A DNA stretch of 64,000 nt from Bacteroidales bacterium (GTDB lineage Bacteria; Bacteroidota; Bacteroidia; Bacteroidales; UBA932): assembly GCA_023667095.1 (NCBI GenBank), contig JAMPAT010000004.1:1-64000 (forward strand), read 5' to 3'. The notes beneath the pieces were generated by a model, which made no database searches, was not told the DNA's origin, and saw only the letters and a list, made by a program, of their open reading frames with translations. Within the stretch, counting starts at the first letter, position 1. Each line of letters starts with the position of its first letter. A program made the position numbers and the translations under genes. Below, piece by piece: positions 15,162 to 42,057 of this stretch.

Positions 15162-15323
15162 AATTTGATAAATCCTGATGGCTCTCAAGGAAACAGAAGG
15201 ACTGGCTTGTCTCTCCGTTTTTATATGTTTCTCCTTTATGTTCAACTGTCGTTGTCGGGGCGTGGTATGATTGTCTGGCTTTGGCCAAAAGGGCAGGATA
15301 GTTCATCTGGAACGCAGCAATTC

Positions 15324-15463
15324 AGCAAGCACGCTTTGAAAATATAACTATCTGAAAACGAAGTATTTCCATTTGAAGACTGTGCCGAAACATGCTAAAT
15401 TCAGTGCCAGAAAGCACACAAAAGTATCATGGAGAGCGTAAAATGCAGATTTGTGTGCTTGCT
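15324..15463. repeat. 140-bp palindromic element, copy 1
   Basis: Outer inverted arms AGCAAGCACGC (15324-15334) and GTGTGCTTGCT (15453-15463) lie exactly 140 bp apart. Inside are a TGTGC half-site at 15381 and a perfect 10-bp stem AGCACACAAA (15413-15422) with its complement at 15450-15459, enclosing a 27-nt loop that holds CATGGAGAGCGTA. The same layout recurs at 37388-37527 and 41685-41824. The flanks are TTC on the left and CA on the right, as in the other copies, but the arms do not extend further outward in this copy. Confidence 0.75.
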
Positions 15464-15638
15464 CATGGTGGATATTTCAGATGTATTCTATAGGAGAGGG
15501 ATGATTGGCAAGAGTGAGGCAAGTGTGAAACGGTATGTCAAGTCTCCTGTTGATGCTGGTCTTGTTGAATACCGCAATTCAAAAAAGACAGGGGGACTTT
15601 ATGTGAAAACATATCCGGGTTATCCTTATTCCAGGTAA
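15429..15638 (+). pseudogene. Fragment resembling a C-terminal winged-helix domain
   Basis: The open frame encodes MIGKSEASVKRYVKSP and LVEYRNSKKTGGLYVK. These resemble the winged-helix end of Fic-type or RecG-like (AlbA) regulators, which often finish with an IEYRGSKKTGGYY-type wing. The catalytic part is missing and the upstream portion overlaps the palindromic element copy 1, so it is probably the leftover of a gene disrupted there. The call rests on a short match. Confidence 0.35.
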
Positions 15639-36570: not shown

Positions 36571-36927
36571 ATTGCAGTATCTATTTGTTGTTTATGTATT
36601 TTAATCTGTATGTACCCGTCTGTTGGCTACATGATGGCTTTAACCTGGCAGTATCTGCTATGTTATGGGAATTTAGCCTGTCAGTGTGACTTTCCCCGAT
36701 TTTTGTTGACAATTGTCACTGACAGTGTTTACAGCCGGTGTTTTATCTCTAAAAGCCTTTACACTGTCTCTGTTTTTGTATCTATATATATAATTCAATT
36801 TATCCTTGTCTATCTTTCTGTCTGCATTAATGGTCTATGTACTCCGGCCTGCTTGCCTATGGTCACCTGCAGTTTTCTTTCTTCCTCACATTCCCTTCCT
36901 CACTTTCATTTTCTCGCTGCCTTTCTT

Positions 36928-37030
36928 TCCCTCGTACATTCTCGCTTCTTTTCTTTCTCTGCTTCTCTTTCCCAATTACCTCCTCTCTTTCTCTCGCACT
37001 GTCACTGTCTCTTACGTGCGCTGCCTTTCT
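36928..37030. repeat. Polypyrimidine direct repeat, copy 1
   Basis: A ~100-bp block starting CCCTCGTACATTCTCGCTTC and ending GCTGCCTTTCT recurs at 37138-37241. The last 37 bp (36994-37030) match the second copy at 35 of 37 positions; the front part has small indels. Confidence 0.75.
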
Positions 37031-37137
37031 CCTGCTTCTCGGCCATTGCTTCTCCTCTTTACTCTTCTCCTTTTTCTTTATCTATTTCCTCTCTTGCTTG
37101 TTTCTTTCTTCCCCTCTGGCAAATTCAGCTTGCTGCT

Positions 37138-37241
37138 CCCTCGCACATTCTTGCTTCTTCTTTTTCCCAATCTCCTCCTCTCTTTCTCTCACTTTCTCTT
37201 TCATTCGCACTGTCGCTGTCTCTTACGTACGCTGCCTTTCT
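37138..37241. repeat. Polypyrimidine direct repeat, copy 2
   Basis: Second copy of the block at 36928-37030, offset by about 210 bp. It shares CCCTCGCACATTCTTGCTTC, the CTCCTCTCTTTCTCT stretch and the 37-bp core 37205-37241. Confidence 0.75.
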
Positions 37242-37323
37242 GTCCTCTATCTCATATCTCAGTATCGTTTTTTGGGGGGTGGAGGGGAGTACCATAGCGC
37301 AGTATTAGTGAAATAGTACACCG

Positions 37324-37354: not shown

Positions 37355-37387
37355 GTTTTTTCTGTCTTTTTTGAGATTTTGCTGTTC

Positions 37388-37527
37388 AGTAAGCACATGG
37401 TTTAAATGTAATTAGCTTATTATTAAATACTTAATTTTTATAAGTGTGCCAATTGCCATGATTTTATAGGGTAATAGGCACACCAATCTGCAATATACGC
37501 GATGTGTGGCACATTTGTGTGCTTGCT
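37388..37527. repeat. 140-bp palindromic element, copy 2 (next to the transposase)
   Basis: Outer arms AGTAAGCACAT (37388-37398) and GTGTGCTTGCT (37517-37527) are exactly 140 bp apart. Pairing can extend outward to TTTGC (37378-37382) and GCAAA (37533-37537), giving a 160-bp element. Inside are GTGTGCC (37444-37450) with GGCACAC (37477-37483), and GCACACCAA (37478-37486) with TTTGTGTGC (37514-37522) around a 27-nt loop. The half-sites have the same offsets as in copy 1. The copy ends about 20 bp before the transposase promoter. Confidence 0.8.
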
Positions 37528-37556
37528 CAAATGCAAACAGATAGGTCTTGCAGAAA

Positions 37557-37587
37557 TTTGTAGATTGGCCGAAAAAGAATACCTTTG
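37557..37587 (+). promoter_or_regulatory. Promoter of the RAYT-like transposase
   Basis: TTTG at 37557-37560, 19 nt, TACCTTTG at 37580-37587: a perfect match to the Bacteroidota -33/-7 pattern. It supports the ATG at 37636 over the upstream TTG at 37585, which would lie inside the promoter. Confidence 0.75.
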
Positions 37588-37635
37588 TCGCAGGAGAGGC
37601 AAATACATGATGTGTGTAATAAATATGACCATATT

Positions 37636-38550
37636 ATGTATAGGAAAACATTGACAGGTCTGTATCATGTCTTTACTGATGGCCTGAAACAGTCTTTGCT
37701 CTTTAATTCAGATGCCGATTTCATTGCTGCAATGAACCGTCTGGCTTTCTGCACTATTACGTGCAACGTAAGAATTGCGGCATTTTGCCTTATGGATAAC
37801 CATATCCATGTAATCCTCCGTGGAACCTATGACAATAGCCGTAAATTTGTAAATACATTTTTCCGGGCATATTCCATCTATTCTTCCAGACACGCGTCAA
37901 TTATCCGGAAAGAAGCGGTAGATGTCGGAATCAAGGCAATCAAAGATGCTGACTACCTTTGCAAGGTGATAGCGTATGTCCTGCGCAACCCGATGAGTGC
38001 TGGGGACAATACATTCTTTTCGGACTATCCATGGAGTTCCGCCGGGCTTTATTTCAGGAGAAAAGGATATTGCATCCCTTCATGGATATTTATTGGTGAG
38101 GAAGCAGGCAGATGTGAATGGGTACATCTTAAGGATATAAAGTCAAGGCAGCGGAGGATGCTGCTTGGTACAAGGCTATGTGTTCCGGAAGACTGGATAT
38201 GTGATGCCACTTCTGGAATGATATGGCCTGGCTGCTATGTTGATTATGCCTTTGTGGAAAATACATATCGGACAGTAAGGCGTTTCATATATTATTTGAG
38301 CCAGCGGAATGAAGAGGAGATGGATGCAGAGCTTGATCTGCTGGATGTTGCCAGGCTTTCGGACAAGGACCTGAGGACAATGGTAATGGAGATGTCAAAG
38401 ACGGACTATGGCACATCCAATGTCAATTCGCTTGGCTATGAGGAAAAGCTGGCATTGGCAAGAACGGCAAGGCGGAAGCTCGGCGTCCCGTTCCGTCAGT
38501 TGTCACGTGTGGTAGGCCTGCCGGAAGAAACATTGAAAAGCTATGTATGA
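37636..38550 (+). CDS. RAYT-like (REP-associated, Y1/IS200-like) transposase
   Basis: A 304-residue single-strand DNA transposase of the HUH superfamily. The HUH motif is H56-I-H58 in MDNHIHVIL, with candidate catalytic tyrosines Y79 and Y82 in FFRAYSIYSSRH. The domain continues with AYVLRNPMSAG and DYPWSSAGLYF, which are typical of RAYTs. The C-terminal part ends in a helix-turn-helix (LGVPFRQLSRVVGLPEETLKSY), like the DnaA-type HTH of some RAYTs. These enzymes do not normally carry terminal repeats; they act on small palindromic elements elsewhere in the genome. Copy 2 of the 140-bp element lies just upstream. Confidence 0.85.
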   Translation: MYRKTLTGLYHVFTDGLKQSLLFNSDADFIAAMNRLAFCTITCNVRIAAFCLMDNHIHVILRGTYDNSRKFVNTFFRAYSIYSSRHASIIRKEAVDVGIKAIKDADYLCKVIAYVLRNPMSAGDNTFFSDYPWSSAGLYFRRKGYCIPSWIFIGEEAGRCEWVHLKDIKSRQRRMLLGTRLCVPEDWICDATSGMIWPGCYVDYAFVENTYRTVRRFIYYLSQRNEEEMDAELDLLDVARLSDKDLRTMVMEMSKTDYGTSNVNSLGYEEKLALARTARRKLGVPFRQLSRVVGLPEETLKSYV

Positions 38551-38929: not shown

Positions 38930-39346
38930 ATGGGCAATATGGAGAAAAATGACAATATGGTGATACCTGTGGCTATAGAAGGAATCCATGCAGGATTCCC
39001 GTCTCCGGCACAAGGGTATATGGACCAGTTCATCGATTTGAACAGGGAACTGGTGCGTCATCCGTCTGCTACATTCTATGGACGTGTGGTGGGGGATTCC
39101 ATGATTGATGCAGGGGTGGAGGAGGGGGATGTGCTGGTGATAGACAAGGCGATAGAAGCCAGGGACGGTGATATGGCAGTTTGCTTTGTTGATGGTGAAT
39201 TCACTCTGAAATACCTTTCTTTCGGTGAAGGATTCCTGCGCCTTGTCCCTGCCAACAAGGCGTATCCGGAAATCAAGATTACGGAAGTCAATGACTTTAC
39301 AGTGTGGGGTGTGGTTACCTATGTAATAAAAAAGGTGCACAGGTAG
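38930..39346 (+). CDS. umuD: UmuD-like S24 peptidase (translesion synthesis accessory)
   Basis: A 138-residue self-cleaving protein of the LexA/UmuD S24 family. The cleavage site is A21-G22 in IHAGFPSPAQ; the Ser-Lys dyad is S57 in VGDSMIDAG and K94 in FTLKYL. There is no DNA-binding domain, so it is UmuD rather than LexA. After RecA-stimulated cleavage it should partner with UmuC in error-prone bypass. The start is uncertain among M1, M4 and M10. Unusually, 488 bp of repetitive DNA separate it from umuC. Confidence 0.9.
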   Translation: MGNMEKNDNMVIPVAIEGIHAGFPSPAQGYMDQFIDLNRELVRHPSATFYGRVVGDSMIDAGVEEGDVLVIDKAIEARDGDMAVCFVDGEFTLKYLSFGEGFLRLVPANKAYPEIKITEVNDFTVWGVVTYVIKKVHR

Positions 39347-39834
39347 GCTGACGGCCTGTACCGGCAAGCATGCATATCCTGAGATACATATCGCTTAGAA
39401 CCGATGATTTTGTGGCTTGTGGAGATGCAACAGATGTGATAAAGAAAGTCCTCGCTGACCGTTGCTGGTGTATTGACATAGGAACTTGTATCAACCTAAG
39501 ATGTTACACCGCTGAATATATTTATTTCAGATATTGTCCCGGCCTAAGATGTTGTGATGATGTCAGATTTCAGGTCGTCTTGGCCGCAGATGTTGCTCTG
39601 CCCCTGGACATAAGAGGCCGCACTGGTTTACGAATTTGCGCAGACTCCTGTGTCGCACAGGTTTCAGAAGTGGTGCAGGCTCCGGTGCAGCACTGATTTC
39701 AGAAGTAGCGCAGACTTCTCAGGTGTTGCACTTATTTCAGATCTTGCACAGGCTTCGGTGTTGCACTGCTCCTGAAGTCGTACTGACTATGGGTCGGGCT
39801 TGCCTCAGATTTAGTAATTATTGAATTGATTGCC
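39347..39834. other. umuD-umuC spacer
   Basis: No gene. The right part holds a degenerate tandem array (see 39515-39775). The left part repeats CCTAAGATGTT at about 39496 and 39543. Neither a promoter nor a terminator is clear. Confidence 0.6.
39515..39775. repeat. Degenerate ~35-38 bp tandem repeat
   Basis: Units beginning TTTCAGA (or variants such as TTTACGA) and containing GCRCAGRCTYC then GTGTTGCACTG follow each other at 35-38 bp periods. The best three run from about 39660 to 39770; older, more diverged units lie to the left. There are no conserved repeat-spacer boundaries, so this is a minisatellite-like array and not a CRISPR. Confidence 0.65.
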
Positions 39835-41148
39835 ATGTATGCTCTTGTAGACTGCAATAATTTTTTCGTGTCGTGTGAAAGGGCTTTCCAGCCTCAGCTG
39901 GAGGGCAGGCCTGTTGTTGTACTTTCCAACAATGACGGGTGTGTCGTGTCCAGGAGCAATGAGAGCAAGGCGATGGGGATCAAGATGTGCACTCCATTCT
40001 ATAAGATAAAGCATCTTGTTGACGCCGGATGCCTTTATGCAAGGTCTTCCAATTATGCGCTTTATGGCGACCTGTCGGCCCGTGTGATGTCTATTCTTGC
40101 AGATGCCGTACCTAAGATAGAGGTATATTCGATCGATGAGGCATTCCTTGTGATGGATGGGATAGGGCAGGAAAAGCAGGTGGAGATATGCCGCGGCCTT
40201 GTGTCCCGGATACGGAAATGGGTCGGGATACCAGTAAGTATCGGAGTCGCCCAGACTAAGACATTGGCGAAAGCAGCAAGTCATTTTGCAAAGAAATATC
40301 CTGGCTATCATGGCGTCTGCGTGATTGATACTGAGGAGAAAAGAGACAAGGCACTGTCCATTTTCCCGATAGGGGAGGTCTGGGGTGTAGGGCGCAGGAA
40401 CCTGGCGAAGATGACTGATGCAGGTATATCCACAGCAGCTGATTTTGTGGCACGCCCGAGGCAATGGGTCAGTGACAATTTCATGTTGCAGGGGCTGAGG
40501 ACATGGAATGAACTTAGGGGGATGCCATGTGTCTCCGGGGAACTTCCGGACAAGCGCAAGTCAATATGTACATCAAGGTCCTTTGCCGACATGGTGGGGG
40601 ACCGTCAGGAGCTGGCGGCGAAAGTTGCTGACTTTGCAGCCCAGTGTGCAGACAAGTTGAGGAAAGAGAATACGGTTGCCGGCAAGGTGACTGTGTTCAT
40701 GTGGACAAACCGTTTCCGTGATGACCTTGAACAGTACTGTCCGTCAGCCACTGTGTGTCTCCCTGTTGCTGCAAGCAACACACAGGAGATTGTCTCTGCT
40801 GCCATGCGCGGAATGGATATTATATATAGGGATGGGTTCCTGTATAAAAAGGCTGGGGTGATAGTCGATGACATCATGGATGCTGATTCTGTTCAGCCGG
40901 CGATGTTTGACTTTGACATGGAACAGCGCAGGAAGCATGATGTGATTTCAGCTGTCATGGACAGGCTGAATGGGAATTCCATATCATCAAGGCCGGTACC
41001 TGGTGGCCGTGCGGGGCTGCTTCGTATGGCATCACAGAGTGCAGGATGTTTCTCTGATGGCATCAGGACGGAGTACAGGTCAAGGCATTTTACAACAGAT
41101 TTTGACGATATCCTGGAGGTGTTTTGCCGGACAGATACAAAAAAATGA
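39835..41148 (+). CDS. umuC: Y-family DNA polymerase UmuC (Pol V catalytic subunit)
   Basis: Error-prone translesion polymerase of 437 residues. The first catalytic motif is YALVDCNNFFVSCERAF at the N-terminus, the second is YSIDEAF with the metal-binding DE pair, and the helix-hairpin-helix VWGVGRRNLAKM and little-finger region follow. The ATG at 39835 is chosen; an in-frame TTG at 39826 would add MIA. It depends on cleaved UmuD and RecA. The initiator tRNA gene begins 60 bp after its stop. Confidence 0.93.
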   Translation: MYALVDCNNFFVSCERAFQPQLEGRPVVVLSNNDGCVVSRSNESKAMGIKMCTPFYKIKHLVDAGCLYARSSNYALYGDLSARVMSILADAVPKIEVYSIDEAFLVMDGIGQEKQVEICRGLVSRIRKWVGIPVSIGVAQTKTLAKAASHFAKKYPGYHGVCVIDTEEKRDKALSIFPIGEVWGVGRRNLAKMTDAGISTAADFVARPRQWVSDNFMLQGLRTWNELRGMPCVSGELPDKRKSICTSRSFADMVGDRQELAAKVADFAAQCADKLRKENTVAGKVTVFMWTNRFRDDLEQYCPSATVCLPVAASNTQEIVSAAMRGMDIIYRDGFLYKKAGVIVDDIMDADSVQPAMFDFDMEQRRKHDVISAVMDRLNGNSISSRPVPGGRAGLLRMASQSAGCFSDGIRTEYRSRHFTTDFDDILEVFCRTDTKK

Positions 41149-41208: not shown

Positions 41209-41281
41209 CGCGGGGTAGAGCAGTTGGTAGCTCGTCGGGCTCATAACCCGGAGGCCGGAGGTTCGAGTCCTTCCCCCGCTA
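41209..41281 (+). tRNA. Initiator tRNA-fMet (CAT)
   Basis: A complete cloverleaf of 73 nt without an encoded CCA (CTA follows). The anticodon CAT is at 41242-41244. It is the initiator rather than the elongator Met tRNA because positions 1 and 72 are an unpaired C and T, and the anticodon stem carries the three G-C pairs GGG/CCC. The sequence is close to bacterial tRNA-fMet overall, with acceptor start CGCGGGG. A promoter and a terminator flank it. Confidence 0.95.
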
Positions 41282-41288
41282 CTAAGCA

Positions 41289-41317: not shown

Positions 41318-41684
41318 CTTTTTATGTCAGTAAAGAAATGGGTATATTTGTGTACATGGGTCATGGAAAATAGCATTGAAAGACACCGTTTTTCTATGTG
41401 CCATCTCTTCGCTGTTGCACACATGCCGCTGCTATTGCCGGACGATTATGGATATTGGTATTGTACTTTCGATAAACCGCTGTGCGGGAAGGCCATCATT
41501 GTTCTCGATGCTATATATGGAGTCAATGCAGTGGGTTATTATGGTGGAGGTGTTGTTATGTTGCTCATGTGACGTCTGTATTATGGTTCATCGTTTATTG
41601 GCCCGTTATATCTGAATGGAAAGTTTGACTGTTGTTTTGGCATATATGCCAATGATTCGTCTGTGCCGCTGTAGTTTGCCAATG

Positions 41685-41824
41685 GGCGAGCACGCAAAAG
41701 TGCCATGGAGAGCGTAGAATGGGGATTTGCGTGTCCGGTGGTACTAAAAAAGGGCGCATGAAGCACGTTTCTAAAAAATAAATGATTGTTATATAGTGAA
41801 TTATGATTTTGGAGTGTGCTCGCT
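41685..41824. repeat. 140-bp palindromic element, copy 3 (inverted relative to copy 1)
   Basis: Outer arms GGCGAGCACGC (41685-41695) and GTGTGCTCGCT (41814-41824) are again exactly 140 bp apart. Pairing extends outward to TTTGCCA (41675-41681) and TGGCAAA (41828-41834). The hairpin CACGCAAA (41691-41698) with TTTGCGTG (41726-41733) encloses a 27-nt loop containing GTGCCATGGAGAGCGTAGAATG. Relative to copy 1, A-T pairs in both stems are replaced by G-C on both sides, which is compensatory change. Confidence 0.8.
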
Positions 41825-42057
41825 GAATGGCAAAACTTATACACAAATCCTCAGTGTAGATATTGCCTTCCCGATTCTGGGAATAAGAACAGTGTCCTGT
41901 TGTCAATCGTGGATTGTCAGTCAAGTATGGTGACAAAACCTGTGACCCTGCTTGTCGAAGTAAGGCCAGCCTTGTTTGAGACCCTGTCTATCAAATCAGG
42001 ACCTTTCATTTTGGAGGCCCTGCCTGCATGCATGTTGCATTTTACCTTATTGCATTG

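Follow-up and report, generated by a model that had tools for sequence, protein, structure and literature searches.

The window analysed here, a stretch of 64,000 nucleotides from the genome of a gut Bacteroidota bacterium, carries a gene for a RAYT-like transposase whose promoter is preceded by a copy of a dispersed palindromic element of ~160 bp. This arrangement raises the question of whether the enzyme and the element belong together, as an earlier note on this DNA had proposed. RAYTs belong to the small number of bacterial transposases that have been domesticated; to our knowledge no benefit to their hosts has been established, and the RAYT experiments known to us were nearly all carried out in Proteobacteria. 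We consider the window RAYT and the ~160-bp element to be a cognate pair with a probability of roughly 0.7.

The RAYT open reading frame is intact (37636–38550, forward strand) and encodes 304 amino acids, with the start set at the ATG at 37636 by homologue alignment. The protein matched the NCBIfam model REP_Tyr_transpos at E = 6e-7 with 29.4 bits, below the curated cut-off of 80, and matched Pfam Y1_Tnp weakly; among 32 homologues from the genus, REP_Tyr_transpos was matched by 23 and Y1_Tnp by 15. When the AlphaFold2 model of the protein (pLDDT 87.4) was compared with the PDB by Foldseek, the top match (E = 1.8e-4) was 4er8, in which the E. coli RAYT is bound to a REP hairpin. This was the sole fold match below 1e-3, and the next among Y1 enzymes were the IS608 and ISDra2 transposases; sequence profiles found no relatives in the PDB. 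Both histidines of the HUH motif H56-I-H58 (37801–37809, forward strand) and the putative catalytic tyrosine Y114 (37975–37977, forward strand) are invariant in two alignments, of 32 and of 40 homologues, and Y114-V-L-R-N-P provides the Y---NP signature of class 2. The fold and these invariant residues bear out the earlier description of the product as a RAYT-like HUH single-strand transposase. The tyrosines then singled out for mutation, Y79 and Y82, were the wrong ones: neither is conserved in either alignment, and Y114 is invariant instead. The protein lacks the W[EQ] motif known from published RAYT subclasses, no tryptophan lying between the HUH motif and Y114. A C-terminal extension of ~160 residues ends in helices resembling a helix-turn-helix (HTH), a similarity that is weak at the sequence level (Xre-like HTH at E = 0.2 in the window RAYT; HTH_23 in 1 of 32 homologues). 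No relatives of the RAYT were found in plasmids, and mobility on plasmids was rejected on this ground.

The element copy beside the RAYT occupies 37378–37538 on the forward strand. In nhmmer the family profile, which had been built with this copy included, matched it from end to end (107.6 bits), and parts of it were also recovered by an independent BLAST search with the 15305–15475 copy as query. Its outer half-sites, 1 (37378–37397) and 4 (37518–37537, both forward strand), form a 20-nt inverted repeat with 80% complementarity. Between them lies a central hairpin (37444–37483, forward strand) that joins half-site 2, GTGTGCCAATTGCC, and half-site 3, GGTAATAGGCACAC, across a 12-nt loop; its 14-nt arms (37444–37457 and 37470–37483) are retained in the single-strand fold. 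The sequence TTTG-N19-TACCTTTG at 37557–37587 (forward strand; boxes at 37557 and 37580) precedes the RAYT open reading frame, and we take it to fit the Bacteroidota promoter consensus. The element does end 20 bp before the promoter, as had been noted earlier. Just upstream of the element, 36880–37260 is pyrimidine-rich and of low complexity, with imperfect direct repeats of ~68 bp.

At least 31 copies of the element family are present in the source genome (3.33 Mb, 52 contigs), the best full-length matches having E values of 1e-34 to 1e-49, far beyond chance. At least 23 of the 31 are extragenic, in that no open reading frame of 110 amino acids covers them. The copies fall into two types according to the orientation of an inner 46-bp core, and three lie inside the window: a type I copy with the core inverted (15315–15468, forward strand), found by BLAST and with the family profile; the type II copy before the RAYT; and a second type II copy on the reverse strand (41674–41834). 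Longer flanks are common to ~9 copies, and three copies make up a tandem with a 252-bp period (contig C22, 158201–158852), so that there have been fewer independent insertions than copies. Two copies, L012 and L026, have ~470 bp of internally repeated right flank in common at 90% identity, possibly as part of a larger duplication. An Rfam search gave no match at E 0.1, and a known RNA family was accordingly rejected; mobility on phages was rejected as well, the core being absent from viral contigs. The core pattern had no matches among the other species that the genome collection covers.

The type II consensus runs from TTTTGCCATTCAGCGAGCACGC through ~46 AT-rich nucleotides to GTGTGCC and, after a further ~26 nucleotides, to GGCACGCAAATCCNCATTCTACGCTCTCCATGGCACTTTTGCGTGC TCGCCCATTGGCAAAC, and the family half-sites are GCGTGC/GCACGC. 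Two arrangements of the four half-sites are possible, pairing 1-4 with 2-3 or 1-2 with 3-4. Under the 1-2/3-4 arrangement, standard pairs filled 95.7% of cells and there were 11 double changes (shuffled mean 7), a count of 11 or more being reached in 13 of 500 shuffles; the nested arrangement had less covariation. Single-stranded DNA folding was applied to the three window copies: two of them exceeded shuffles modestly (z about −1.9 and −1.7), the third did not. Both the modest covariation and the folds of single copies, which barely exceed those of shuffles or do not exceed them, count against the pairing of element and RAYT.

Two copies of the element lie within 3.1 kb of the RAYT, where 0.07 would be expected by chance (probability ~0.002, with the radius chosen afterwards). 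One is the copy directly upstream; the other, the next nearest, is the 41674–41834 copy, 3.1 kb downstream, beyond three genes and inverted relative to the first. When genomes with and without the RAYT were compared for element copy number, as the earlier note had suggested, the RAYT lineage (>40% identity) was found in 1 of 400 genomes of the genus, the source genome, and the element in that same genome, with one 30-bp partial match elsewhere. This co-occurrence agrees with the pairing, the number of positive genomes being one.

A broader view was obtained from RAYT loci across the genus, probably a Cryptobacteroides-like group; named relatives are metagenome-assembled genomes of Candidatus Cryptobacteroides, Coprenecus and other Bacteroidales. 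Repeats of more than 40 bits running from flank to flank were present at 58 of the 96 non-redundant loci with enough flank, the maximum in a control of 100 random placements in the window being 35 bits. These palindromic units are nearly species-specific. The two 1.4-kb flanks of the window RAYT itself have no repeat in common. Directly upstream of the closest sister RAYTs (35–39% identity; in genomes G026, G380, there as locus L121, G021 and G024) lies an element of four half-sites and AT-rich arms, with a weaker second copy across the gene, and these elements are local rather than dispersed. Taken together, the element copy before the window RAYT and the private repeats around related RAYTs indicate that pairing of RAYTs with palindromes is probably real and widespread in the genus. 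Many genomes of the genus contain several divergent RAYTs, most with units of their own, providing dozens of natural enzyme-substrate pairs from which a recognition code could be read.

The source genome itself provides such a comparison. The window RAYT is single-copy there, and the genome has four further RAYTs, ~28% identical to it, all of which sit inside two-sided arrays of their own dyad units (73–84/146–168 bp): 84/168 bp at L032 on contig C49, 73/146 bp at L033 on contig C18, ~148 bp at L034 on contig C48 and 154 bp at L035 on contig C29. The units of these paralogues are mostly local, whereas the window family is genome-wide, and half-site sequences appear to be particular to each of the genome's RAYTs. 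The units of the C18 array match the core of the window family at E = 1e-6. In the RAYT-adjacent copy the matching stretch is 37480–37519 on the reverse strand, which has 85% identity to the C18 array-unit core across 40 bp (E = 2e-5; local score 28, shuffle maximum 15). TGCCAYAGAG was rejected as a general loop motif of RAYT units, being exact in 3 of 102 loci, with one-mismatch matches at the level of shuffles; given this rarity, we claim a common core for the window family and C18 only, with L052 as a possible third case. Arrays with a C18-type core also occur away from the C18 RAYT locus, at C11:125154–125792 and C40:780–1188.

The pairing proposed earlier is thus supported by the palindromic units that accompany RAYTs of this family, by the same design upstream of sister RAYTs and by the restriction of both partners to the same single genome of 400. 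That this enzyme binds or moves the element we infer; judged from sequence, it is likely the one acting on the family. Further observations count against the pairing. The sister elements are not dispersed. Units like those of locus L037 are present in G065, G074, G076 and G079, genomes that have no close RAYT, one at least 53% identical to that of L037 being found only in G029 and G077; persistence of REPs after the loss of their RAYT could explain such units. At the window locus, no array surrounds the RAYT and the adjacent copy is the most diverged of 20 aligned type II copies (64% identity to the majority of the others).

This divergence also fits an unlikely alternative, in which the element is a MITE-like family of another transposase and an old copy came to lie before the RAYT by chance. 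The 20-bp terminal inverted repeat, the length of 160 bp and the dispersed copies agree with such a family, and any given gene would be preceded by a copy with a chance of a few per cent. However, the element copies have no target-site duplications, no length standing clearly above permuted pairs, and on this ground a DDE-type MITE was rejected. A family foreign to RAYTs also sits poorly with a core common to the units flanking the C18 RAYT of the same genome, with genus RAYTs typically flanked by such units, and with sister RAYTs that have the same design in the same place. Slightly less probable again is that the upstream copy is a mere regulatory structure, an operator or terminator of a domesticated RAYT that has ceased to mobilise anything. 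Its position 20 bp before the promoter, the like position of the elements of sister RAYTs and the weakly HTH-like C-terminal extension would suit this role, but something must have mobilised the element in the past to give ~31 dispersed copies, and the active-site residues are intact. Very improbable is ownership of the family by another RAYT of the source genome, above all that of C18, because the core match noted above is offset by wholly different half-sites (GGTTGG/CCAACC at C18), which are the part that differs between RAYT systems, and because the copy beside the window RAYT carries the family half-sites at full length.

For the cognate pair, a mechanism can be proposed by analogy with TnpA-REP, the model for binding, nicking and rejoining of REP hairpins in single strands (PMC8266576); the fold, the active site and the association are what we observed here. 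In this reading the window gene, which is chromosomal, encodes an HUH tyrosine endonuclease of RAYT type (TnpA-REP-like) whose family is abundant in the genus. The enzyme would most likely recognize the GC-rich half-sites of its cognate element as folded single strands, for instance on the lagging-strand template. Y114 would nick beside the half-sites and form a 5'-phosphotyrosine link, after which the ends would be rejoined. In this way the element could have been copied to ~31 mostly extragenic sites while the RAYT gene stayed single-copy, and the copy beside the RAYT promoter might permit autoregulation.

The inner 46-bp core is found in both orientations among the element copies. In type I copies it is reverse-complemented in place, as seen from opposite-strand matches at the same position; among the 28 copies that were aligned there are eight of these, and the near-duplicate L004 is a further one (L001–L009 are labelled type I, and L010–L030 and L075 type II). 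A tree built from the left arms alone requires at least three orientation switches, forced by well-supported branches, and 0 of 200 bootstraps gave a single-switch tree. These switches indicate that inversion of the core, or its exchange between copies, happened on more than one occasion. Inversion could arise if the DNA were cleaved at half-sites 3 and 4 and rejoined crosswise, or by template switching within the palindrome at the replication fork, and the data favour neither RAYT rejoining nor fork template switching. Recurrent inversion would in either case be a visible trace of hairpin handling, by the enzyme or by the replication fork. A wider scenario, which we put forward tentatively and regard as somewhat doubtful, is that a long-RAYT lineage in a large Bacteroidota genus built private repeat systems, several per genome, one of which spread across its genome as a composite element of four half-sites, with a 46-bp core that was repeatedly flipped, possibly through RAYT cleavage and rejoining at the hairpin. 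If true, this would be an invertible REP-like element and would offer a view of DNA rearrangement by RAYT-type enzymes.

The system resembles RAYT/TnpA-REP pairs, or REPtrons (PMC2817692, PMC8266576), in its HUH/Y1 fold, its Y-x-x-x-N-P motif, its single chromosomal gene, and private palindromic repeats at the gene and genome-wide in lineage-specific pairs; Nunvar 2010 (PMC2817692) describes two modes of repeat distribution, genome-wide and RAYT-proximal. It differs in that the 304-residue protein has a long C-terminal extension and lacks W[EQ], and in that its units of 150–160 bp contain four half-sites, compared with REP palindromes of 20–40 bp, and occur in moderate copy number. Like GTAG-type REPs the element is multi-copy and extragenic, whereas its length (~160 bp) and the absence of a GT[AG]G foot from the consensus set it apart. 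The earlier suggestion that a Bacteroidota version would be new was overstated, because subclass 2.6 (Bertels group 5), listed earlier by Quentin 2018 (PMC6006769), comprises Bacteroidetes RAYTs with an NH[LIV]H motif whose genes lie between atypical secondary structures that also have copies at other places in the genome. In contrast to the window RAYT, with 304 residues, no W[EQ] and YVLRNP, members of subclass 2.6 have a median of 179 residues, WQ and YIH[QN]NP. TIRYTs (subclass 2.1; PMC3733652, Quentin 2018) likewise have a long C-terminal extension, in their case ending in an HTH to which the end of the window RAYT has weak similarity, and terminal inverted repeats rather than GTAG REPs, but their GGGGWSAS inverted-repeat motif is absent from the element consensus, and the element copies are dispersed and composite. 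With the IS200/IS605 enzymes of IS608 and ISDra2 the protein has the Y1 HUH fold in common, as lower-ranked fold matches; unlike them, the window gene is no multi-copy insertion sequence, its nearest paralogue being 28% identical. The RAYT/REP kind itself is known; the long protein, together with a composite 160-bp unit, the private arrays of each paralogue and the flipping core, makes the present system a new version of that kind.

Downstream of the RAYT, the window encodes a UmuD-like S24 peptidase (38930–39346) and a UmuC-like polymerase (39826–41148), followed by a tRNA-Met (41209–41282) and then by the third element copy of the window.
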